A stretch of DNA of 64,000 nucleotides from Gammaproteobacteria bacterium (GTDB lineage: Bacteria; Pseudomonadota; Gammaproteobacteria; DRLM01). A program made the translations under genes and the position numbers. Of the stretch, positions 1,644 through 16,679 are shown piece by piece (the stretch's first letter is position 1; each line of letters begins with the position of its first letter). The stretch covers positions 3,972 through 67,971 of the forward strand of contig JAHFRV010000002.1 in the NCBI GenBank assembly GCA_023266095.1. The letters are read 5' to 3'. Below the pieces are notes generated by a model. That model was not told where the DNA came from. It did not search any database and worked only from the letters and a program-made list of their open reading frames with translations.

Positions 1644-2519
1644 CTAGGCGTATTGGCCGACAAAGTTGAGTCCCGTGTGACCGCATTTGCGGCCGGCCAG
1701 GCGGCAGGCGGCTTCCAATGCCTCGGTGAGTGCCAGCCGGCGGACGAGGGCGTCGATGATGCCGGCGTTGAAGGTGTCGCCGGCGCCCAAGGTGTCGACG
1801 ATCTGCGGCGGCGGAAAGGCCGGGCTGTGCATCAGTTGGCCGCTGCGACTGAGGGCCCATGCCCCGGCCTCGCCCCAGGCTAACACCAGATCGGCCTGCG
1901 GCGCGCGCCGGTGCATGTCGTGCAGAAAATAGCCGGGGTCGGAGCTGGCCTGCGCGTGCACATAGTCGCGGGAAAATAAGAGTACGGTAGCGAGTGGGAA
2001 AAGTTGTTCGATGCCGGGACGCGGCTTTTCGATCTCCACCGAGCGCGGGGTGAGCGGCCGCGAGGCGCGGGCCAGTTCCAGCATGCGGGCGGTGTCGGCG
2101 ATGTTGCGGCCTTCGAAATGCAGCCAACCGAAGCGGCTGAGGTCGATGGTTTGAAAATCCTCGTAACGGTATTCCGGCAAATCGCGATAGTGCACGATGG
2201 TGCGTGAACCATTTTGTTGATTGAGCGTGATGTAGGAGGTGGGCACTTTGCCATGGGCGAGATGCCGCACGGGGCCGAGGTCGATGCCGTAGCTATTTAA
2301 GTCGTCGGTGATGCGCGCGGCGTCGGGCTCGTCGGCCAGCACGCCGCCCCAGGCGCAGTCATGGCCCAGTTGGCTGAGCACCACCAGGCTGTTGGCGCAG
2401 TTGCCGCCGCGGCCCACGCGCTGCACCCGCGCGCGCACCTCGGCGTCCTCCGGCGGATAGGCGGCGACGCTGTTGACGATGTCGAGGGTGGCGATGCCGA
2501 CGCCGAGGATGCGGGCCAT
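1644..2519 (-). CDS. PfkB-family sugar kinase
   Basis: ATP-dependent kinase of the ribokinase/PfkB fold, 291 residues. Visible features are the N-terminal GRGGNCANSLVVLSQLG substrate-lid region (about residues 36-52) and the C-terminal PfkB signature 2, DTLGAGDTFNAGI (about residues 240-252), which holds the catalytic Asp and the anion hole. The overall pattern is closest to ketohexokinase/ribokinase-like members, but the substrate cannot be assigned. The gene starts 3 bases after the stop of the upstream zinc-ribbon protein and is followed by the pentapeptide gene, so the three are probably co-transcribed. Confidence 0.88.
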   Translation of the reverse strand: MARILGVGIATLDIVNSVAAYPPEDAEVRARVQRVGRGGNCANSLVVLSQLGHDCAWGGVLADEPDAARITDDLNSYGIDLGPVRHLAHGKVPTSYITLNQQNGSRTIVHYRDLPEYRYEDFQTIDLSRFGWLHFEGRNIADTARMLELARASRPLTPRSVEIEKPRPGIEQLFPLATVLLFSRDYVHAQASSDPGYFLHDMHRRAPQADLVLAWGEAGAWALSRSGQLMHSPAFPPPQIVDTLGAGDTFNAGIIDALVRRLALTEALEAACRLAGRKCGHTGLNFVGQYA

Positions 2520-2522
2520 GGC

Positions 2523-2828
2523 CTAGTGCTTGGGCTGGTCCGGGCGCATGACGGCCAGGGGCATCACCGTGACATTGATGACGTTGAGTATGATCCAGAT
2601 CACAGCCATATAAAAAAAATGGAGTATATTGCCGGTGAAGTGGTACATGCCGTAAAACCAGATCACGTTCCAGATATGGAAAAAATACAGGATGGCGAGT
2701 GGGATGGGATAGGCGCAGAGTTTGGCGCCGCAATCGGAGCAGTAGATGTTTTGCCACAGGCCGCTGAGGAACTTTTCCTTTACCGTGATACTCATCTCTT
2801 TGCAGCGCGGGCATTGGTAAGTCGACAT
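2523..2828 (-). CDS. Small zinc-ribbon membrane protein, unknown function
   Basis: I chose the ATG at 2828, giving MSTYQCPRCKE; an upstream in-frame start at 2852 adds only eight poorly protein-like residues. The 101-residue protein has two CxxC knuckles (CPRC at residues 6-9 and CSDC near residue 30), as in a zinc ribbon. Two aromatic-rich hydrophobic segments follow (around YPIPLAILYFFHIWNVIWFY and FFYMAVIWIILNVI), suggesting a membrane hairpin with a cytoplasmic ribbon. It is the first gene of the operon with the PfkB kinase and is divergent from the ankyrin lipoprotein. I do not recognise the family. Confidence 0.7.
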   Translation of the reverse strand: MSTYQCPRCKEMSITVKEKFLSGLWQNIYCSDCGAKLCAYPIPLAILYFFHIWNVIWFYGMYHFTGNILHFFYMAVIWIILNVINVTVMPLAVMRPDQPKH

Positions 2829-2861
2829 GGCGCGGATCGGTCTCCGAAGCAAAGATGATAA

Positions 2862-2878
2862 AGACTATCATATAGTCT
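2862..2878. promoter_or_regulatory. Short palindrome in a divergent promoter region
   Basis: Two 7-bp arms (agactat / atagtct) separated by CAT form a perfect inverted repeat in the 123-bp gap between the divergently oriented zinc-ribbon and ankyrin genes. It could be an operator or a promoter-proximal hairpin. No regulator is assigned. Confidence 0.35.
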
Positions 2879-2951
2879 CTCCGGCGTGGGGTGACGCGGA
2901 TAAACCTGTTAAAATGCCGCCGTACTTTTAGTCGCGAGAAGTAGCCAAGTC

Positions 2952-3494
2952 ATGTTGCGTGTTCAACGCTGTTTATGGGTCGTACTGTTCAGCCTCGTGC
3001 TCGGAGCCTGCGATAAAAATACCCCTTTGATGGACAAAGTGATCGCCGCCGACCGACCGGCGGCAGCTGCGCTGCTGGACGGCGGCGCACCGGTGGATGA
3101 GCGTAACAATTACGGATGGACCGCTTTGAGTCATGCGGCGCGTCTGGGTCACACTGAGCTGGCGGCGCTGTTGCTGGATCGCGGCGCCGATGTGAATGCC
3201 GAGGACGACTCGGGCTGGACACCTTTGATGCGTGCCGCCATGAAGGGCCATGCCGCCACCGTCGAACTGTTGCTGGAACGCGGCGCGCTGGTCGACAAGC
3301 CCGAGAAAAACGCCTGGACCGCGCTGCATTGGGCCGCTTCGGGTGGACATCGCGAGGTGGTGGTGGCGCTGATGAAACATGGTGCGAATATCACGGCCCG
3401 TACCAAGGACGGCTGGACGCCGATGATGTTGGCCAGCAAAGAGAACTGGGAAGAGATAGCGCAGTTGCTGCATCAGGCCGGTGCCAGAGAATAG
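2952..3494 (+). CDS. Ankyrin-repeat lipoprotein
   Basis: A 180-residue protein with a lipoprotein signal peptide ending in the lipobox LGAC (Cys 20), so it is probably membrane anchored and periplasmic. About four ankyrin repeats follow, each with the GWTxLxxAAxxGH core (GWTALSHAARLGH, GWTPLMRAAMKGH, AWTALHWAASGGH, GWTPMMLASKEN). Ankyrin repeats bind proteins; the partner is unknown. It is followed by a second small lipoprotein gene, probably in the same transcript. A second ankyrin protein lies at about 32.7 kb. Confidence 0.88.
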   Translation: MLRVQRCLWVVLFSLVLGACDKNTPLMDKVIAADRPAAAALLDGGAPVDERNNYGWTALSHAARLGHTELAALLLDRGADVNAEDDSGWTPLMRAAMKGHAATVELLLERGALVDKPEKNAWTALHWAASGGHREVVVALMKHGANITARTKDGWTPMMLASKENWEEIAQLLHQAGARE

Positions 3495-3504
3495 GGGGCG
3501 AGAG

Positions 3505-3915
3505 ATGTCGATTGGTAACGTGATGAGGGTGTTGGCGTTGGCCCTGCTGGTGACGGCCTGCGGCGAGGACGGTACGGGTGTGCCGGCGCCGGTCGGCGAT
3601 CATGCGACTCTGCAGAAGCTGGCCGCCAGTTATGAGGCCCTGGTCGAGAAGATACCGGGCAACCCCTCGATGTTGCCGCCCAAGGACCGCAAACGGTTCG
3701 TGGAACAGGTGTTCACCGACAGCGGTTATCACTACCGTGCGACGCTGTTACAGTTGGCCAAGAGCGGTTGGGAACCGCAAAACCAAAACGCCAAGGATTT
3801 GGTCGAGCTGGTGTTGATGCCGACCTCGAACCTGGGACCGGACCAGACCATCGACGGGGTCTACAATGAGGAGGAACTGGCGGCGGTACGTAAACTCCAG
3901 GCGATGTTACGTTAA
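3505..3915 (+). CDS. Small lipoprotein of unknown function
   Basis: The ATG at 3505 is preferred: a G-rich stretch (GGGGGCGAGAG) precedes it and it yields a compact signal peptide with lipobox VTAC. An in-frame GTG at 3481 would overlap the ankyrin gene. The mature part (about 115 residues) has no motif I recognise. The C-terminal stretch around TIDGVYNEEELAAVRKLQ has the look of a peptidoglycan-binding helix pair, but this is weak. It sits in an apparent operon behind the ankyrin lipoprotein and 12 bases before the endonuclease V gene. Confidence 0.7.
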   Translation: MSIGNVMRVLALALLVTACGEDGTGVPAPVGDHATLQKLAASYEALVEKIPGNPSMLPPKDRKRFVEQVFTDSGYHYRATLLQLAKSGWEPQNQNAKDLVELVLMPTSNLGPDQTIDGVYNEEELAAVRKLQAMLR

Positions 3916-3927
3916 GAACGACCAATA

Positions 3928-4623
3928 ATGTCCCCGCTGGTCATACACCATCCCCACCCCTGGAACGTCAGCCCCGCCGAGGCCATCGCCCTGCAGCAAC
4001 GTTTGCGTAATGAAGTGATCGCCCGCGATGAACTGGGCGAGGTGCGGCGGGTGGCGGGGGTGGATGTGGGGTTCGAGGAGCAGGGACGCATCACCCGCGC
4101 CGCGGTGGTGGTGTTGTCTTTCCCTGATCTGGTGATGCAGGAGCAGGTCCTCGCCCGCCGGCCGACCGAGTTTCCTTACGTGCCGGGTTTGTTGTCGTTT
4201 CGCGAGGTGCCGGCGGTGCTGGAGGCCTTGGCGCAATTGCCCTATCTGCCCGACCTGGTGTTGTGCGACGGCCAGGGTATCGCCCATCCCCGGCGCCTGG
4301 GTATCGCGTCCCATCTCGGGGTGCTGAGCGGTTTGCCGACCATCGGGGTGGCCAAGAGCCGCCTGGTGGGCGTCCACCCCCCGCTGGCTGAGGAGAAGGG
4401 CGCGTCGGTCGAATTGTATGATCGCGGTGAGGTCGTGGGTAAGGTGTTGCGTACCCGCGACCATATACGGCCGCTGTATATTTCCCTCGGCCACAGGGTG
4501 AGTTTGGAGACGGCGGTGGAGTATGTGATGCGCTGCGTCACCCGTTACCGTTTGCCCGAGCCCACCCGCCAGGCCGACAAACTGGCCTCGGCGGTGAGCC
4601 GGGCCAAACCCCGTGACGCGTGA
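3928..4623 (+). CDS. nfi: Endonuclease V (deoxyinosine 3' endonuclease)
   Basis: Cleaves the second phosphodiester bond 3' of deoxyinosine and starts repair of deaminated adenine. Length 231 residues is typical. Visible are VAGVDVGFE (about residues 43-51, first catalytic Asp), the [10 protein letters not shown] segment that contacts the lesion strand, LCDGQG with the second catalytic Asp, [12 protein letters not shown], and IGVAKSRL. It starts 12 bases after the upstream lipoprotein stop with a weak ribosome site, so it may be translationally coupled. Confidence 0.93.
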
Positions 4624-4710
4624 CGCGGCGATTCTTCCGCTGCGAGTCCGCATCGTGGGCGGACATTTCATGAGGAGTAGGGTAGAGCGTCGTATATTCA
4701 GGAACAGAAA

Positions 4711-4852
4711 TCTCCCCTCCTTGTATAAAGAGGGGTGCCCCGGCGGGGCGGGGTGGTTGATGTACCGTGTACCCGAGCAGTATGTTCACTGCGTTTTTGC
4801 ACCCACCGCCCCGCCGCTAGTGCGCCACCCCTCCTCTTTTGAGAAGGGGAGT
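4711..4852. repeat. Imperfect long inverted repeat (intergenic palindromic element)
   Basis: The arm beginning ctcccctccttgtataaaga at about 4712 recurs in inverted form at about 4799-4852 (cctcctcttttgagaagggg). Both arms carry a CGGGGCGG/CCGCCCCG core, and about 40 bp lie between them. The arms have diverged, as in dispersed palindromic repeats of proteobacterial genomes. It occupies most of the 426-bp gap between nfi and the SUMF1-type gene; the rest of that gap shows nothing I can name. Confidence 0.6.
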
Positions 4853-5049
4853 GATGAAACAGTGTGATCTTTCATCGCAGAGCCAATGTTCCAGCAATAG
4901 CGAAGCGCTACACTAGGGTGGCGCAAAGTGCTCAGGTCGGTCGGGCGCTGGCTGATGGATCGACCTGTGCCGCATGGAAAGTGGGGCACGATGTGCAGCC
5001 GCCGCGCCGGTTCGACGGCCGCTGACTTGGACAGTAACAGAGTGGTGTC

Positions 5050-5994
5050 ATGAATTATTCTCTCGTTCTCCGGTGGGTTTGCGGAGGTTTGGCGGGTCTG
5101 AGCACCGTGACGGCGTGGGCCGCCCCCGCCACGGAAGGCATGGTGCGGATCCCGGCCGGGCCGTTTCTGATGGGGACCGCGCGTGACGACAGCCGTCAGC
5201 AAGTGCAGGAATACGGTGCGATCAAACCCTGGTACGTCGATGAAAAGCCGCAGCGCAAAATCGTCCTGCCGGCGTTTTGGATAGATCAATACGAAGTCAC
5301 CAACGCCGAGTACCGCGAGTTTGTCCGCCAGGCCAATTATTGGGTGCCGCCGTCGTGGCGCGATAATGGGTATTTATTGAATCCGGAGTTGTTGCGGCTG
5401 GCCGACTTGCCGAGCCTGCGCCGGCTGGCCGACGATACTTTCCGCATTGACGCCAATAGCGAATTGATGGACCGCGAGGCCTTATTGCAGGCCATTACGC
5501 AGGTGCAGCGCAAATTCGATCCCTTGCCGGTGACGATGGTGGATTGGGGTAATGCCAACGATTATTGCCATTGGCGGGGCAAACGACTGCCCAGCGAGGC
5601 GGAATGGGAAAAGGCTGCGCGCGGTGATGATGGCCGTGAGTATCCCTGGGGTAATCAATGGGACTCGACGCGTTTGAACGCCAGCGGCGGAGATCGCTGG
5701 GATTCCGGTACTGCGCCGGTGGGCTCCTATCCCAAAGGGGTTTCACCTTATGGCGTGTTTGATATGGCGGGCAATGTGATGGAATGGGTGCAGGACTGGT
5801 ATGGACCCTATCCCGGCAATCAATATCAAACACCCGCCTACGGCAAGAAATACAAGGTGGTGCGCGGCGGCGGCTGGGGCGGCATGGGGCATTACACTCT
5901 CGCCCAGTTTTATCGCAGCGCCTACCGGCTTTATATGCAGTCAGGGTCGTTGTTCGTCGACGTGGGTTTTCGTTGCGCGAAGGATGACGGTTAA
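5050..5994 (+). CDS. SUMF1/formylglycine-generating-enzyme-fold secreted protein
   Basis: A 314-residue exported protein with an N-terminal signal peptide (cleavage near VTAWA-AP, about residue 21). The SUMF1 fold is seen in order: MVRIPAGPFLMGT, WIDQYEVTNAEYREFV, KRLPSEAEWEKAARG, YPWGN, YGVFDMAGNVMEWVQDWY, VVRGGGW and the terminal VGFRCAKD. Members include true formylglycine generators, iron-sulfur assembly and c-type lectin-like proteins. No sulfatase gene is nearby, so a true sulfatase-activating role is not supported. It stands alone; a 145-bp dispersed repeat follows it. Confidence 0.85.
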   Translation: MNYSLVLRWVCGGLAGLSTVTAWAAPATEGMVRIPAGPFLMGTARDDSRQQVQEYGAIKPWYVDEKPQRKIVLPAFWIDQYEVTNAEYREFVRQANYWVPPSWRDNGYLLNPELLRLADLPSLRRLADDTFRIDANSELMDREALLQAITQVQRKFDPLPVTMVDWGNANDYCHWRGKRLPSEAEWEKAARGDDGREYPWGNQWDSTRLNASGGDRWDSGTAPVGSYPKGVSPYGVFDMAGNVMEWVQDWYGPYPGNQYQTPAYGKKYKVVRGGGWGGMGHYTLAQFYRSAYRLYMQSGSLFVDVGFRCAKDDG

Positions 5995-6060
5995 CCGGCT
6001 GCTGCCCGGCACGAGACGCGAACCGCGGCTGGTGCTGCGCGCGGGTTTTTGAAATCGCTA

Positions 6061-6203
6061 AGGAAGCGCTGAATAATTCCATCCGGAAATTTTCAGAGCG
6101 TGGAAAGCGACAAGTGCCATTTTCGCTTTTCTTCATTGTCTATGGCTAAGCGCCATTCAAAATGCCGGCACATCCGTGTGCCGCAGAACCTCTGAACAAA
6201 TCA
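6061..6203 (+). repeat. 145-bp dispersed repeat, copy 1
   Basis: Starts ggaagcgctgaataattcca and ends near cctctgaacaaatca. The reverse complement of 20703-20848 matches it along its whole length with scattered substitutions. Each copy has the same short motif CTGAA(T/C)AAnTC at both ends, in direct orientation. No coding potential. It is probably a small non-autonomous or relic mobile element. Confidence 0.75.
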
Positions 6204-6276
6204 CAGGTTCTCTAATGCGTTATTGGCAAGACTAGAGCTTCAATGTCTTGTGCGCCGGCCGTACTTCAATAGCCGG

Positions 6277-7122
6277 TTAATCGCTCGTCGGGTGAAGCTG
6301 TGCTTGCGGATTGGATACGGTGCTTGCTTTGAGACGGTCATCCCGCCAGGTCAGCGCCCGGCTGATACGGTCGCGTAGAATCACCGCATTGTAGGGTTTG
6401 ACCACGAAGTCGTCGGCGCCCAAATTCCTGCAGCGTTCCAGGCTGGCGTTGTCACCCAAGGCGGAGACCATGATGATTGGCACGTTACGCAAGGGCTGTC
6501 GTGAGCGGAGGGTTTGTAACAGCTCGCAGCCATCCATGCGCGGCATCATGATATCCAGCAGGATCAGATCGACCGTGTTTTGCTCGAGCAAGGTGAGCCC
6601 CTCATCGCCGCTGGCGGCGATGAGAGGAATGTGGCCGAGTTTCTTGACTCGCCGCGACAATAAATCGCGGTTGAGCGCATTGTCTTCCACGATCAAGATG
6701 ACGCGCGGCGGATGTTCGGCCCGGTTGGTTGGTCGGTTTAATTTCAACTCGAAGAGACAGCGCCACATGCGGGCCTTGAGCATGGTGACTTCGCAGGGCT
6801 TGATGAGGTAGTCGTAAGCTCCCAGAGTTTGGCAGCGGTCCATGCTGAATCTATCAGCGACGGCGCTGAACATGATCACCGGAATGTCATGCAGCCGAGG
6901 GTCGTTTTTAATTTTAAGCAAGACTTCGTAGCCATCCATCCCCGGCATCATGATGTCGAGCAGGATTAAGTCGTAGCGTTCCACTTCCAGTAGGTTCAAC
7001 GCCTGGCGACCATCGGCGGCCTGTTCGACTGTATAGCCTTCGCGCAGCAATCGGCGGCTGAGGATGTCCCGGTTGGTTTCATCATCGTCAACGATCAATA
7101 TGGACGTGTTGGTATGGTCCAT
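6277..7122 (-). CDS. Tandem receiver-domain response regulator (REC-REC)
   Basis: I chose the ATG at 7122, giving MDHTNTSILIVDDDETNRDI, 281 residues. Two CheY-like receiver domains lie in series. The first (about residues 8-122) has the acidic pair in VDDDE, phospho-acceptor DIMMPGMDGYE, and K in YLIKP. The second (about 143-262) has VEDNALNRD, DIMMPRMDGCE and FVVKP. Both look competent for phosphorylation. There is no GGDEF, EAL, HD-GYP or DNA-binding output domain, so it resembles the receiver half of PleD-like proteins. It is divergent from the DUF155 gene and no kinase is adjacent. Confidence 0.85.
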   Translation of the reverse strand: MDHTNTSILIVDDDETNRDILSRRLLREGYTVEQAADGRQALNLLEVERYDLILLDIMMPGMDGYEVLLKIKNDPRLHDIPVIMFSAVADRFSMDRCQTLGAYDYLIKPCEVTMLKARMWRCLFELKLNRPTNRAEHPPRVILIVEDNALNRDLLSRRVKKLGHIPLIAASGDEGLTLLEQNTVDLILLDIMMPRMDGCELLQTLRSRQPLRNVPIIMVSALGDNASLERCRNLGADDFVVKPYNAVILRDRISRALTWRDDRLKASTVSNPQAQLHPTSD

Positions 7123-7305
7123 GGTCTCTCTTAGGTGTAAGTTAATGACATTGGCCTGTGCGGCGGCGCTTAGCAGTTTAACGGCTGAGATCATGAAAAA
7201 TTAATTCGCGGCCGACATAGGTAATCAGGACTTATTGATGATTCCCCCCGGGGGCGGCGATGGCCATCGAACGCGGCTAGCGGTGTTTTTTTAGAGACGG
7301 GCTTT

Positions 7306-8106
7306 ATGAGCAAGGATCTCTTTTCCAACAAGGCCGCGCTGAAGGTGCGGGCCCTGTTTTTGGGCGGACGGCTCGATCTCAAGGGTTTGGAGTCGGGCCG
7401 CTTATTGCCGGCTTTGCCGTTGCTCATCAATGCGGGCGAGCAAGGTTGCGCGGTGTTGTTCCGTTACGGCGCGGTGGTGTTGTTCAATCTCACGCCGGTG
7501 GAGGAGCTTTCCTTTCTCACCCACCTCCAGCCCCTGTTGCGCGATCCGTTTGAAACGCCCGACACCGAGATGGTCGAATTGGCCATCGATTCGACCACCG
7601 ATGAGCGGGTGGAGAATAACGTGATCTCGATCAAGGATGCCCGTCTGGAACGGTTGCAGGTCGTGGCGGATATCTTGGCCAAGTCGGTGGTGTTGGATCA
7701 TTACGAAAAACGGGTGGCCGGGGTGTTCGACCGGATCGAGCCGTTGGCGGAGCGCTTGCAGCGCAAGGGGCGCACCGAGTACCGCGATAGCGAGCTGTTG
7801 CGCCACATCGGCGGCACTTTGCTCATTCAGCACACCACCGTCGGCCGCGTCGAGGTCGACGAAAAACCCGAGACCTTGTGGGAGCGACCCGACCTGGAAC
7901 GGTTTTACGTGCGTCTCGAAGACGAATACGAACTCAAGGAACGCCATCTCGCGCTGGAGCGTAAGCTGGATCTGATCTCCCGCACCGCCGAGACCTTGCT
8001 CAACCTGCTACAACACCGGCGCAGTCTGCGTGTCGAATGGTATATTGTCATCCTGATCCTGTTCGAGATCGTGCTCAATCTCTTCGATACGTTTTTATTG
8101 CGTTAA
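7306..8106 (+). CDS. DUF155/RMD1-family protein with C-terminal membrane anchor
   Basis: A 266-residue member of the RMD1/YagE-like DUF155 family, known in eukaryotes from mitochondrial RMND1. It shows the N-terminal GCAVLFRYGAVVLFNL strand region, the central VVADILAKSVVLDHYEKRV helix, ERFYVRLEDEYELKERH, and a single C-terminal membrane segment (VEWYIVILILFEIVLNLFDTF). Bacterial function is uncharacterised. Its stop overlaps by four bases the stop of the convergent pterin dehydratase gene. Confidence 0.85.
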   Translation: MSKDLFSNKAALKVRALFLGGRLDLKGLESGRLLPALPLLINAGEQGCAVLFRYGAVVLFNLTPVEELSFLTHLQPLLRDPFETPDTEMVELAIDSTTDERVENNVISIKDARLERLQVVADILAKSVVLDHYEKRVAGVFDRIEPLAERLQRKGRTEYRDSELLRHIGGTLLIQHTTVGRVEVDEKPETLWERPDLERFYVRLEDEYELKERHLALERKLDLISRTAETLLNLLQHRRSLRVEWYIVILILFEIVLNLFDTFLLR

Positions 8107-13189: not shown

Positions 13190-16100
13190 ATGAAATCGAG
13201 CAAACAGCTAGCCCGTTATTTGGCGTTTCTGGCGATGATCTCATCAATCATGTTTAGTGGTTACGCCACAGCTGATGATGATGAGTGTGATAACCGCTAC
13301 TCAAGCAGCCTCTCTTGCCAAAACCGCGACAGCGACGGCGACGGCCTCAGCAATGGCGCCGAAGCCACGCTCGGCACCAACCCCAACCTTGCCGACAGCG
13401 ACGGCGACGGCCTCAACGACGGCACCGAAGTCGGCGGCAACGTCAGCGCCCCGCGCGACAGCGACGGCGACGGCGTCATCGACGCGCGCGAACCCAACAA
13501 CCGCGACGCCGACAACGACGGCACCAACGACCAAGCCGACGTGGCCAACACCGACCCCTGCCGGCCCAGCACCACCAACGCCGCCTGCCTGACCGCGGAT
13601 ACAGATCGCGATGGTGTGCCGGACGCGCGGGACGGTGATAACGACAACGATGGCATACCCAATATCACCGAAGGCGCGGGCGATAGCGACGGTGACGGTG
13701 TGCCGGATGCGCGCGATCCGGATAGCGATAACGATGGTATCCCCGATATCATCGAGGCCGGTGGCGTCGATGCGGACGGCAACGGCCGGGTGGATGGCGT
13801 TGTTGACGGAGATGGCGATGGCGTGATGGATAGCGTGGATCCGGACAATGGCGGGACGCCGCTGCCGGTGCCGGACACGGATGGCGACGGTAAACCCAAC
13901 TATCGGGATGTCGATAGTGATGGCGACGGCATCCCCGACCGGGTGGAGAGGGGCACCGGTGCCGCTGGCCCGCGCGATAGCGATGGCGACGGCAAAGCCG
14001 ATTATCTCGATCGCGATTCGGATGGCGATGGCCTGCCCGATCGTTTGGAAAGCCAGGTGACCGGCCTCGACGGCGACGGCGACGGTATCGACGATGCCTT
14101 TGATGTGAATGTGACTCGGGGCGTCGATGCCAATGCCGATGGCATCGACGATGCCATCGTGCCCACCAATACGGACGGCGACGGCTTGCCCGATTACCGG
14201 GATATCGATGCCGACAACGACGGCATTATCGACACCGTGGAGAGCAATATGCGCGGCAGCGACGCCGACGGCGATGGCCTTGACGACGCGCTAGACGTGG
14301 GTATGACCAGTGGTGTCGATCGCAACGGCGACGGCATCGACGACGCTTATCGCTTGCCCGATACGGATGGCGATAGCGTGCCGGACGTCCACGACCTGGA
14401 TACGGACAACGACAGTGTGCACGACGTGATCGAGGCCGGTTTGCGGGATGACAACGGTGATGCCTTCATGGATGTCGGTCAGACGGTGACGAGCACGCCG
14501 CGTGATACCGATGGTGATGGCGTGGCGGATTTCCGCGACACGGACTCCAACAACGATGGGATATTGGATATCGTGAGCGCGGGACTGGGCCGCTTGGATG
14601 GCAATGGCAATGGCCGCATCGACGCCATTGCCGATGCCGACCGCGACGGCATACCCGATGTGGTGGACGGTGCGCCTACCGTCTTTGGCAACCGCGTGGA
14701 CGGGGATGGAGACGGCGTCTCCGACAGTGACGATCTGGACGACGACAACGACGGGATTCCCGATGTGGTCGAGGGCGGCGGCTTGGTGGATACCGACCGC
14801 GATGGCATACCGGATTCCCAAGACCGTGACAGCGACAACGACGGGATTCCCGACGTGGTGGAAGGCGGTGGCCGGGACGCGAACGGCGATGGCGTCATCG
14901 ACGACGCGGACAACGATAGCGATAACGACGGTCTCGCCGACCGTGTTGACCCGACCACCGGCGGCACGCCGTTGCCGTTGCCGGACTCGGATGGCGATGG
15001 TATTCCCGATTACCGCGACCGCGACAGCGATAATGACGGCGTGCCCGATGTGATCGAAGGCGGCGGCAGGGATGGCAACGGCGACGGCCTGATCGACGAC
15101 GCCGACCGCGACGCCGACCGCGACGGTCTGCCCGACAGCGTCGATACTTCCACTGGCGGCCATGCCCTGCCTTTACCGGACGCCAACGGCAACGGCGTGC
15201 CCGATTACCTCGACCCCACGACCCGTCCGCCCGGTGGTCAGGGTACCGGTGGCGCCGGCAACCCCCTCAATACCACCACGCAAGGCGCGGGCAGCAGTAG
15301 CCCGGCCATGTTGGCGCTGCTCGCTTTGTTCACATTGCTGCGTGGGCGTCGCCGCTACCTGGCTAGGCTGTCAGTGATGGGTGTGGTGGTCTTGTTGCTG
15401 CCTTACGGCTCAGCGTCCGCTGACGATCTGGAGTGGAAAAAGGGCTGGTATGTTGGCGGTGATCTGGGTCTGTCTCGGCTTGAGCCCGAGGGTGATCAAT
15501 CGGCGTTCGTGGTAGCCGATGATCGCAGTCACGGTTATCGCGTGCTCGGGGGCTACGATTGGTCCAGATTCTTATCCTTTGAAGCGTTCTACCTGGATGC
15601 CGGTTCGGCCAAGATCGACGGTGCGAATCCCGCCATCGGCCGCTTGGGCGACTTGACTTATAGTTTGACGGGGCTAGGCGTGAATTACCGGCCGCTTAAG
15701 CAAGAAAAACGCCTCGTCCCCTACCTCAAAGCCGGCATGGCGTACACCCGCAATGGCGTGGATGATACGCGCATCATCTACGATAGGGATCACCCGACCG
15801 GGGCGTTTTTCGGCGCGGGTTTAGCCTGGCGGTTTGCGTCCAGCTGGTCGCTCAATACCGAGTGGGTAAGCTACGACCGAGACGAATCTTTCCTGTCCTT
15901 GGGAATAAGAAAATCTTTCGGCGCCAGCCAGAAGCCCGCCCCCGTTGTCGCCGCCGAGCCAGTGTTCGAAGCACCGGTGGAAGTGATTCCGTTGCCCGCG
16001 GTCGAGGTGGAGCCTCCGGTAGCCATGCCACCCAGAGACGGCGATGGTGACGGTGTTCCCGATGCGCAAGACCGCTGTCCTGACACCGCCCCTAGCGTCA

Positions 16101-16576
16101 ATGTCGATGCGCGCGGCTGCAATATCCTCGTCATCGAACGTGACGACGACCAGGACGGGATCGTCAACAGTCGTGATAAATGCCCAAATTCTAAACCCGG
16201 CGCGAGGGTGGACAACCTCGGCTGTGAATTGCCCGACATCGTAATATTACGCGGCGTGCACTTCGAAACCGCCGCCAGCCGTCTCACCGCTGATTCCAAG
16301 GTCGTGCTCAACGGCGTGGCGGAGACCCTGCGTAGATATCCGGATATGCTGGTCGAGGTGGCCGGGCATACCGACAACCGCGGTTCCGATTCCTACAATC
16401 TGAATCTGTCGCAGCAACGGGCGCAGGCGGTGGCGGAATACCTCTTCGCCCAAGGCGTGGCCAAGAACAATTTAATCGCCAAGGGATATGGCGAGACTAT
16501 GCCGGTCAGGGAAAACATCACCGAAGCCGGGCGCACCACCAATCGCCGGGTCGAGTTGCATATCCTGCGGCGCTGA
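13190..16576 (+). CDS. Giant calcium-repeat protein fused in frame to an OmpA-family outer-membrane protein
   Basis: One uninterrupted 1128-residue frame from the ATG at 13190. Residues 1-28 are a signal peptide (cleaved near YATA-DDD). Residues 45-685 are dozens of thrombospondin type 3-like DxDxDGxxD calcium-binding repeats. A tripartite sorting-type tail follows: small residues (GAGSSSP), hydrophobic MLALLALFTLL at 707-717, and the basic cluster RGRRR. Immediately after, at Met 730, a second signal peptide appears (MGVVVLLLPYGSASA-DD). It leads into an OmpA-type beta barrel (about 750-905), a Pro/Val linker, two more calcium motifs (DGDGDGVPDAQDRC), and a C-terminal OmpA peptidoglycan-binding domain (FETAASRL to RRVELHI). 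A strong terminator follows. It may be cut into two proteins; see findings. Confidence 0.85.
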   Translation: MKSSKQLARYLAFLAMISSIMFSGYATADDDECDNRYSSSLSCQNRDSDGDGLSNGAEATLGTNPNLADSDGDGLNDGTEVGGNVSAPRDSDGDGVIDAREPNNRDADNDGTNDQADVANTDPCRPSTTNAACLTADTDRDGVPDARDGDNDNDGIPNITEGAGDSDGDGVPDARDPDSDNDGIPDIIEAGGVDADGNGRVDGVVDGDGDGVMDSVDPDNGGTPLPVPDTDGDGKPNYRDVDSDGDGIPDRVERGTGAAGPRDSDGDGKADYLDRDSDGDGLPDRLESQVTGLDGDGDGIDDAFDVNVTRGVDANADGIDDAIVPTNTDGDGLPDYRDIDADNDGIIDTVESNMRGSDADGDGLDDALDVGMTSGVDRNGDGIDDAYRLPDTDGDSVPDVHDLDTDNDSVHDVIEAGLRDDNGDAFMDVGQTVTSTPRDTDGDGVADFRDTDSNNDGILDIVSAGLGRLDGNGNGRIDAIADADRDGIPDVVDGAPTVFGNRVDGDGDGVSDSDDLDDDNDGIPDVVEGGGLVDTDRDGIPDSQDRDSDNDGIPDVVEGGGRDANGDGVIDDADNDSDNDGLADRVDPTTGGTPLPLPDSDGDGIPDYRDRDSDNDGVPDVIEGGGRDGNGDGLIDDADRDADRDGLPDSVDTSTGGHALPLPDANGNGVPDYLDPTTRPPGGQGTGGAGNPLNTTTQGAGSSSPAMLALLALFTLLRGRRRYLARLSVMGVVVLLLPYGSASADDLEWKKGWYVGGDLGLSRLEPEGDQSAFVVADDRSHGYRVLGGYDWSRFLSFEAFYLDAGSAKIDGANPAIGRLGDLTYSLTGLGVNYRPLKQEKRLVPYLKAGMAYTRNGVDDTRIIYDRDHPTGAFFGAGLAWRFASSWSLNTEWVSYDRDESFLSLGIRKSFGASQKPAPVVAAEPVFEAPVEVIPLPAVEVEPPVAMPPRDGDGDGVPDAQDRCPDTAPSVNVDARGCNILVIERDDDQDGIVNSRDKCPNSKPGARVDNLGCELPDIVILRGVHFETAASRLTADSKVVLNGVAETLRRYPDMLVEVAGHTDNRGSDSYNLNLSQQRAQAVAEYLFAQGVAKNNLIAKGYGETMPVRENITEAGRTTNRRVELHILRR

Positions 16577-16643
16577 TGATTTGAAGTGCGGCTGCGAGCG
16601 CAGTCGCGCGTCGGCCCGGAGAGTTTACACAGCGCGGATGCCA

Positions 16644-16679
16644 AGCAGCCTATCGGTGATCGATAGGCTGCTTTTTTTT
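16644..16679 (+). terminator. Rho-independent terminator
   Basis: A perfect 12-bp stem (agcagcctatcg / cgataggctgct), 5-base loop and run of eight Ts, 67 bp after the stop of the OmpA-fusion gene. Textbook intrinsic terminator. Confidence 0.93.

Follow-up and report, generated by a model that had tools for sequence, protein, structure and literature searches.

The DNA considered here (the window, a 64,000-nucleotide stretch of a gammaproteobacterial contig) holds a gene that raises the question of whether two proteins of the bacterial envelope are made as one chain and then cut apart. The initial annotation described a single frame joining a calcium-repeat protein to an OmpA protein, and offered three readings of it: a natural polyprotein, a fusion kept uncut, and internal initiation at position 15377. 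The frame stands: it is open from an ATG at 13190 to a stop at 16576 on the + strand (1128 aa), and the corresponding junction of a sister species is also in frame. The chain consists, in order, of a signal peptide, TSP3/DxDxDG repeats, a sorting-type tail, YLAR, a second hydrophobic stretch, SASA-DD, a barrel, two short TSP3 repeats and an OmpA domain. The hydrophobic stretch of the tail takes up residues 707-717, RGRRR residues 718-722 and SASA residues 741-744, followed by D745; Met730 is encoded at 15377, and 406 residues lie downstream of RGRRR in the same frame. The features are the following:

13190..13273, + strand: first (N-terminal) signal peptide, residues 1-28, MKSSKQLARYLAFLAMISSIMFSGYATA, read from the sequence as a basic n-region, a hydrophobic core and an ATA-DD site
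13274..15229, + strand: TSP3/DxDxDG repeats of calcium type, presumably the surface part (several stretches matched by Pfam TSP3_bac, 33.2 bits against a cut-off of 25)
15272..15355, + strand: internal sorting-type tail, TTTQGAGSSSP, MLALLALFTLL (hydrophobic) and RGRRR, from TIGR03382/TIGR03901 scores and alignment with homologous junction tails
15341..15367, + strand: shared basic loop RGRRRYLAR, tail end and n-region of the second signal peptide (basic residues in all homologous loops)
15368..15421, + strand: second signal peptide, hydrophobic core and predicted SASA cleavage site, from the [AVSTGL]xA site of the homologous junctions
15377..15379, + strand: internal ATG (Met730), a proposed start judged unused (absent in the sister species; no basic n-region; Shine-Dalgarno -3.6)
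15440..15922, + strand: OmpA-type beta-barrel, eight-stranded (PF13505 8e-15, PF01389 4e-6; low-confidence model with 8 strands)
16037..16230, + strand: short TSP3 linker from barrel to OmpA domain (PF02412, best stretch residues 950-967)
16262..16546, + strand: OmpA C-terminal domain, peptidoglycan-binding (PF00691 7e-21)
16643..16673, + strand: intrinsic terminator 3' of the gene, 14-pair stem and T run

The DxDxDG repeats, the barrel and the OmpA C-terminal domain of the initial annotation are all matched by Pfam models, and the scores place the chain in the OmpA family (PF13505 55.9 bits, cut-off 28.7; PF00691 74.8 bits, cut-off 27.2). The structure model is poor (mean pLDDT 48) and at most hints at two helices followed by eight strands. 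The terminator after the gene is strong. Of the flanking genes, the upstream one is an NAD-epimerase-family gene on the opposite strand, and the downstream one, which shares the orientation of the window gene, encodes an aldehyde dehydrogenase. Long antisense ORFs on the minus strand (13297-13899 and 14291-15163) cover the repeat region and are best explained as products of periodic GAC/GGC-rich coding sequence, not as genes.

A first search covered 95 relatives; a barrel profile was then run over 369 gammaproteobacterial genomes, with matches in 39, most of the matched places were retrieved, and 80 barrels were classified. Usable fused junctions, defined as one frame with tail helix, basic loop and second signal peptide, number 34 and, by the tool's own family codes, are spread over no fewer than 13 families of gammaproteobacteria; since the sample was picked from profile matches, the fused fraction is a biased estimate. 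The homologues that the initial annotation proposed to seek are found in both forms, in the same order within these frames and with the halves as adjacent genes. Where the OmpA gene is separate, its direct upstream neighbour is mostly a gene with the same type of tail at its end, and overlap of the two is frequent. G001, the sister species in the window's genus, is represented by a biocathode MAG of an uncultured gammaproteobacterium (CAMYKQ010000025). It has the same in-frame junction in an open frame of 1131 aa that runs off the contig start; this frame is 69% identical to the window gene over tail, barrel and OmpA domain. Further fusions among the 95 relatives are those of G057 (2067 aa) and G061 (2148 aa), and separate OmpA genes those of G080 and G082. 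A contig scan with a narrower alignment returned three loci only.

Several loci are worth describing in their own right. L139 (G165:C106, ORF 1673-7804, + strand, 2043 aa) has a tail-like helix, an unusually long loop of 44 residues, a second signal-peptide-like stretch and a divergent barrel; a doubtful variant, it is kept in the 34-junction counts and excluded from the tree discussed below. L123, with no tail within 110 residues of its barrel, is excluded from both. L048 (G002:C125), from a third genome of the window's genus that is 75% complete, has its junction in frame (near 4327-5118, minus strand) in a gene broken by frame changes in repeats and barrel, the result of sequencing error or decay. 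At L044 (G061:C7:364000-378000) the tail-protein genes are duplicated in tandem and every OmpA gene carries a pair of OmpA-like domains; the family has expanded locally there in its separate-gene form.

The junction of the window gene reads RGRRRYLARLSVMG. Its second signal peptide had been taken as complete from the Met at 15377, which does not hold: MGVVVLLLPYGSASA, which starts at Met730, contains no basic residue and thus no basic n-region. The basic residues of this signal peptide are those of RGRRRYLAR upstream, which are also the basic end of the tail; the two signals therefore share one cytoplasmic loop. By the positive-inside rule the segment would form a hairpin, with one helix running out-to-in, a cytoplasmic basic loop, and a second helix running in-to-out. 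RGRRRY is kept between the window gene and G001, its codons differing synonymously, and every loop among the 34 junctions is basic (2-10 basic residues). A signal-peptidase-like [AVSTGL]xA follows the second hydrophobic stretch in 33 of 34, as against 22.3 +/- 2.4 in shuffles. Purifying selection acts across the junction in four close pairs (non-synonymous/synonymous ratios 0.37, 0.00, 0.07 and 0.36), one of them having 10 synonymous changes and 0 non-synonymous ones, another 26.5 and 4.5. Conservation of the junction between the window gene and G001 is moderate (pN/pS 0.37), which counts against the polyprotein model.

Nevertheless, that model is the best supported of the three initial readings, by virtue of the conserved signals and of repeated switching between one gene and two. 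As far as the sequence can tell, the gene probably encodes one polyprotein that is cut twice to yield a surface TSP3 protein and an outer-membrane OmpA partner; we infer both cleavages, the attachment to a lipid, the route of secretion and that the products are partners. The N-terminal signal peptide would launch export of the TSP3-repeat part, and the Gly-rich tail helix would halt transfer, with RGRRR staying in the cytoplasm. The second signal peptide, with the shared basic loop serving as its n-region, would restart export, and signal peptidase I would cleave after SASA to release a periplasmic OmpA, free to insert in the outer membrane and bind peptidoglycan. Cleavage of the tail would fall to an intramembrane sorting protease, for which the single rhombosortase of the genome is the likeliest candidate, and would leave the TSP3 protein attached to a membrane lipid and displayed on the surface, probably via type II secretion. 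The two products would then be matched, one the surface protein and the other its outer-membrane anchor, in the manner of TraA and TraB.

The tail, TTTQGAGSSSPAMLALLALFTLLRGRRR, had been read as being of GlyGly-CTERM type, and the tripartite layout of that tag is indeed there (three parts at 707-722): GAGSSSP (small/Gly), MLALLALFTLL (hydrophobic) and RGRRR (basic). The class assignment itself did not survive. TIGR03501, the GlyGly-CTERM model (cut-off 15.5 bits), gives no match to the tail, no GG pair immediately precedes the helix, and the tail is internal, whereas GlyGly-CTERM is placed at the extreme C-terminus of proteins (PMC3237569). Because the tail fails TIGR03501 and is internal, the window protein is not filed as a GlyGly-CTERM protein. 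The closest tag models by score are those of MYXO-CTERM: a 41-aa tail fragment scores 16.6 with TIGR03382 (cut-off 15.85) and 19.8 with TIGR03901 (cut-off 20), and a longer chain of 723 aa falls below both cut-offs. The invariant pre-helix Cys of MYXO-CTERM is missing, the tail containing no Cys at all; that residue is required for processing by MrtX (PMC11980579). The JDVT-CTERM model (NF033191) gives 11.4 bits, below its cut-off of 27. The homologues are split by tail type: internal tails of four pass TIGR03501 (L102 18.1, L118 24.0, L124 18.4, L137 16.7), and two fused homologues have an internal JDVT-CTERM above cut-off. We infer that the window tail functions like these tags, and likewise what enzyme may cut it.

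The initial annotation had also suggested looking for a rhombosortase gene, and the window's own genome has one (TIGR03902, 154.7 bits, cut-off 84, with a GLSG motif), as well as the type II secretin GspD (599.6 bits). Rhombosortase is present in 38 of the 39 barrel-family genomes as against 88 of 330 others (p = 7.5e-19) and, counted by family, in 22/22 as against 48/160 (p = 6.9e-11); these figures take in the whole barrel family, separate-gene versions too, and the genomes are non-independent. A search of the same genome for MrtJ was empty, and processing by MrtJ of a JDVT tag is rejected there for that reason. TIGR03501 has no match in the genome. A tail profile built from the family has the window gene as its sole clear match there, along with two weak ones (E 0.6 and 3.9).

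The weaker of these (L151, G000:C72, ORF 1-1578, + strand, at least 525 aa) ends exactly in the tail ATGSGVGGGVFAPYWLIALLLIGATRHRA; it also contains an Ig domain of VesB type (28.1 bits against a cut-off of 25.5). VesB is a studied rhombosortase substrate (PMC6219818), and the C72 protein is likely, judging by these matches, an ordinary rhombosortase substrate overlooked by TIGR03501. In about ten genomes an MrtJ gene adjoins a separate OmpA barrel gene (G215:C79, G048:C8, G310:C34, G315:C54, G320:C149, G082:C115, G188:C37, G069:C44, G149:C45, G261:C6), so that many JDVT-CTERM loci look like three-gene loci (TSP3 protein, OmpA and MrtJ), as against the two-gene neighbourhood in the literature.

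The strongest rival to the model concerns the cut in the tail. Signal peptidase might make the single proposed cut, freeing the OmpA, while the TSP3 half either stays behind, its tail helix holding it in the inner membrane, or is cut by another protease (such as GlpG or a myxosortase-like enzyme). The higher scores of the tail with MYXO-CTERM than with GlyGly-CTERM models speak for this, as does the ability of GlpG to cut VesB (PMC11389362, PMC11980579). The clear rhombosortase of the genome, the empty search for MrtJ, the tracking of the barrel family by rhombosortase and the missing Cys that MYXO-CTERM processing needs (PMC11980579) speak against it, and it is unlikely.

The OmpA might instead be made separately from ATG 15377 or GTG 15374, readthrough from the first half being incidental. 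The two codons are in frame and adjacent, just beyond the zone in which starts were counted and within the hydrophobic core, and their Shine-Dalgarno energy (-3.6) is no worse than that of the gene's first start (-3.3); it is also near that of random in-frame start codons inside barrels (median -2.4), and the signal peptide so produced would lack a basic n-region. G001 has neither a GTG nor an ATG at the matching positions. In the segment that begins where the tail helix ends and extends four residues into the second hydrophobic stretch, 23 of the 34 fused junctions have no ATG, GTG or TTG at all, so that most, the sister's included, are without a usable start. The best Shine-Dalgarno energy has a median of -5.5 kcal/mol for separate OmpA genes and 0 for fused ones (p = 2.8e-6), junctions without a start codon being scored as 0. 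With few internal starts in the fused genes, start and ribosome-binding site kept in the separate OmpA genes, and the Met absent in the sister, one chain that is cut afterwards is the best supported, and independent initiation is rejected as quite improbable.

That the chain is kept whole, anchored in the inner membrane by a helical hairpin while its OmpA half lies in the periplasm or outer membrane, is compatible with the one open frame, cutting being deduced from sequence motifs; the history of the family makes it very improbable. On a tree of barrel and OmpA sequences there are 13 changes between fused and paired forms, at least 10 of them forced by well-supported branches. The closest contrast is between G080:C33, where two genes in different frames overlap, and G207:C7, where there is a single frame: they are sisters in the same genus (100% support), and their DNA is clearly alignable. 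If the chain remained intact, nothing would explain why a functional tail and signal peptide are maintained across lineages, and that reading leaves the preserved tail, basic loop and signal-peptidase site (33/34 junctions) of these switching lineages unexplained; an uncut hairpin would also tie an outer-membrane-bound barrel to the inner membrane. If the chain is cut, one gene and two genes yield the same products. An assembly or sequencing error that deleted a stop, conceivable in a draft genome of 110 contigs, is rejected, being refuted by independent homologues with the same kind of in-frame junction (G001, G057, G061, G207, G014, G276 and others), and the in-frame sister junction together with purifying selection establishes that the junction is not an artefact.

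To our knowledge, it is rare in bacteria for a polyprotein to be cut into separate envelope proteins. The cytochrome b/c1 protein FbcH of Bradyrhizobium is a bacterial polyprotein in which signal peptidase cleaves at an internal signal sequence; unlike the window chain it belongs to a respiratory complex and has neither a sorting tag nor a second protease. The nearest likeness is MXAN_5598 of Myxococcus xanthus, in which a single frame runs through a large adhesin region, an internal MYXO-CTERM, an outer-membrane barrel and an OmpA domain. The passage on it in PMC11980579 calls it atypical and possibly a fused gene, proposes that its N-terminal part is processed, compares it with TraA and TraB, and mentions no second signal peptide such as the window gene has; PMC4158809 records the protein in Myxococcus vesicle preparations, in a passage that says nothing on cleavage. 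MXAN_5598 is a single case in Myxococcota with a Cys-containing tag for the myxosortase MrtX, whereas the window family is gammaproteobacterial, is found in many families with rhombosortase, and has in the window gene a Cys-free tag. TraA and TraB, an outer-membrane exchange pair whose ORFs overlap by four bases (PMC3325183), likewise combine a tagged surface protein with an OmpA-domain partner, but as two genes, and TraA has PA14 and Cys repeats in place of TSP3. The TraB model NF033763 is the top NCBIfam match of the whole window chain (132.2 bits, residues 942-1126 only, short of its cut-off of 700). With the VesB-RssP system of GlyGly-CTERM and rhombosortase (PMC6219818, PMC3237569) the window gene shares the tripartite tail and, in its genome, rhombosortase and type II secretion; it differs in that its tag is internal and does not pass TIGR03501, a model that the internal tails of four homologues pass. 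JDVT-CTERM/MrtJ is approached by homologous TSP3-OmpA pairs with JDVT-like tails and MrtJ beside OmpA; the window genome differs in having no MrtJ match and a tail without Cys.

The literature searched contained no report of a gammaproteobacterial fused TSP3-OmpA family. The present analysis takes what was noted for one Myxococcus protein and broadens it to a widespread family, linked to a different protease, for which sequence evidence points to a chain made whole. The recurrence of the arrangement in many gammaproteobacteria argues for a natural bacterial polyprotein and not an accident. On balance we favour a widespread native class of polyproteins that would deliver surface protein and outer-membrane partner 1:1, joined by a shared basic hairpin and separated by two unrelated proteases (rhombosortase-type and signal peptidase). 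In evolution such a chain would be freely interchangeable with an operon of two genes, and the class would work with more than a single sorting system (rhombosortase, JDVT/MrtJ, MYXO). Sorting-tag searches restricted to protein C-termini overlook internal tags, and the one-gene and two-gene lineages are natural controls on whether such tags work within a chain. The tie of each surface protein to a specific OmpA partner suggests that many uncharacterised pairs like TraA and TraB may exist in Gammaproteobacteria.
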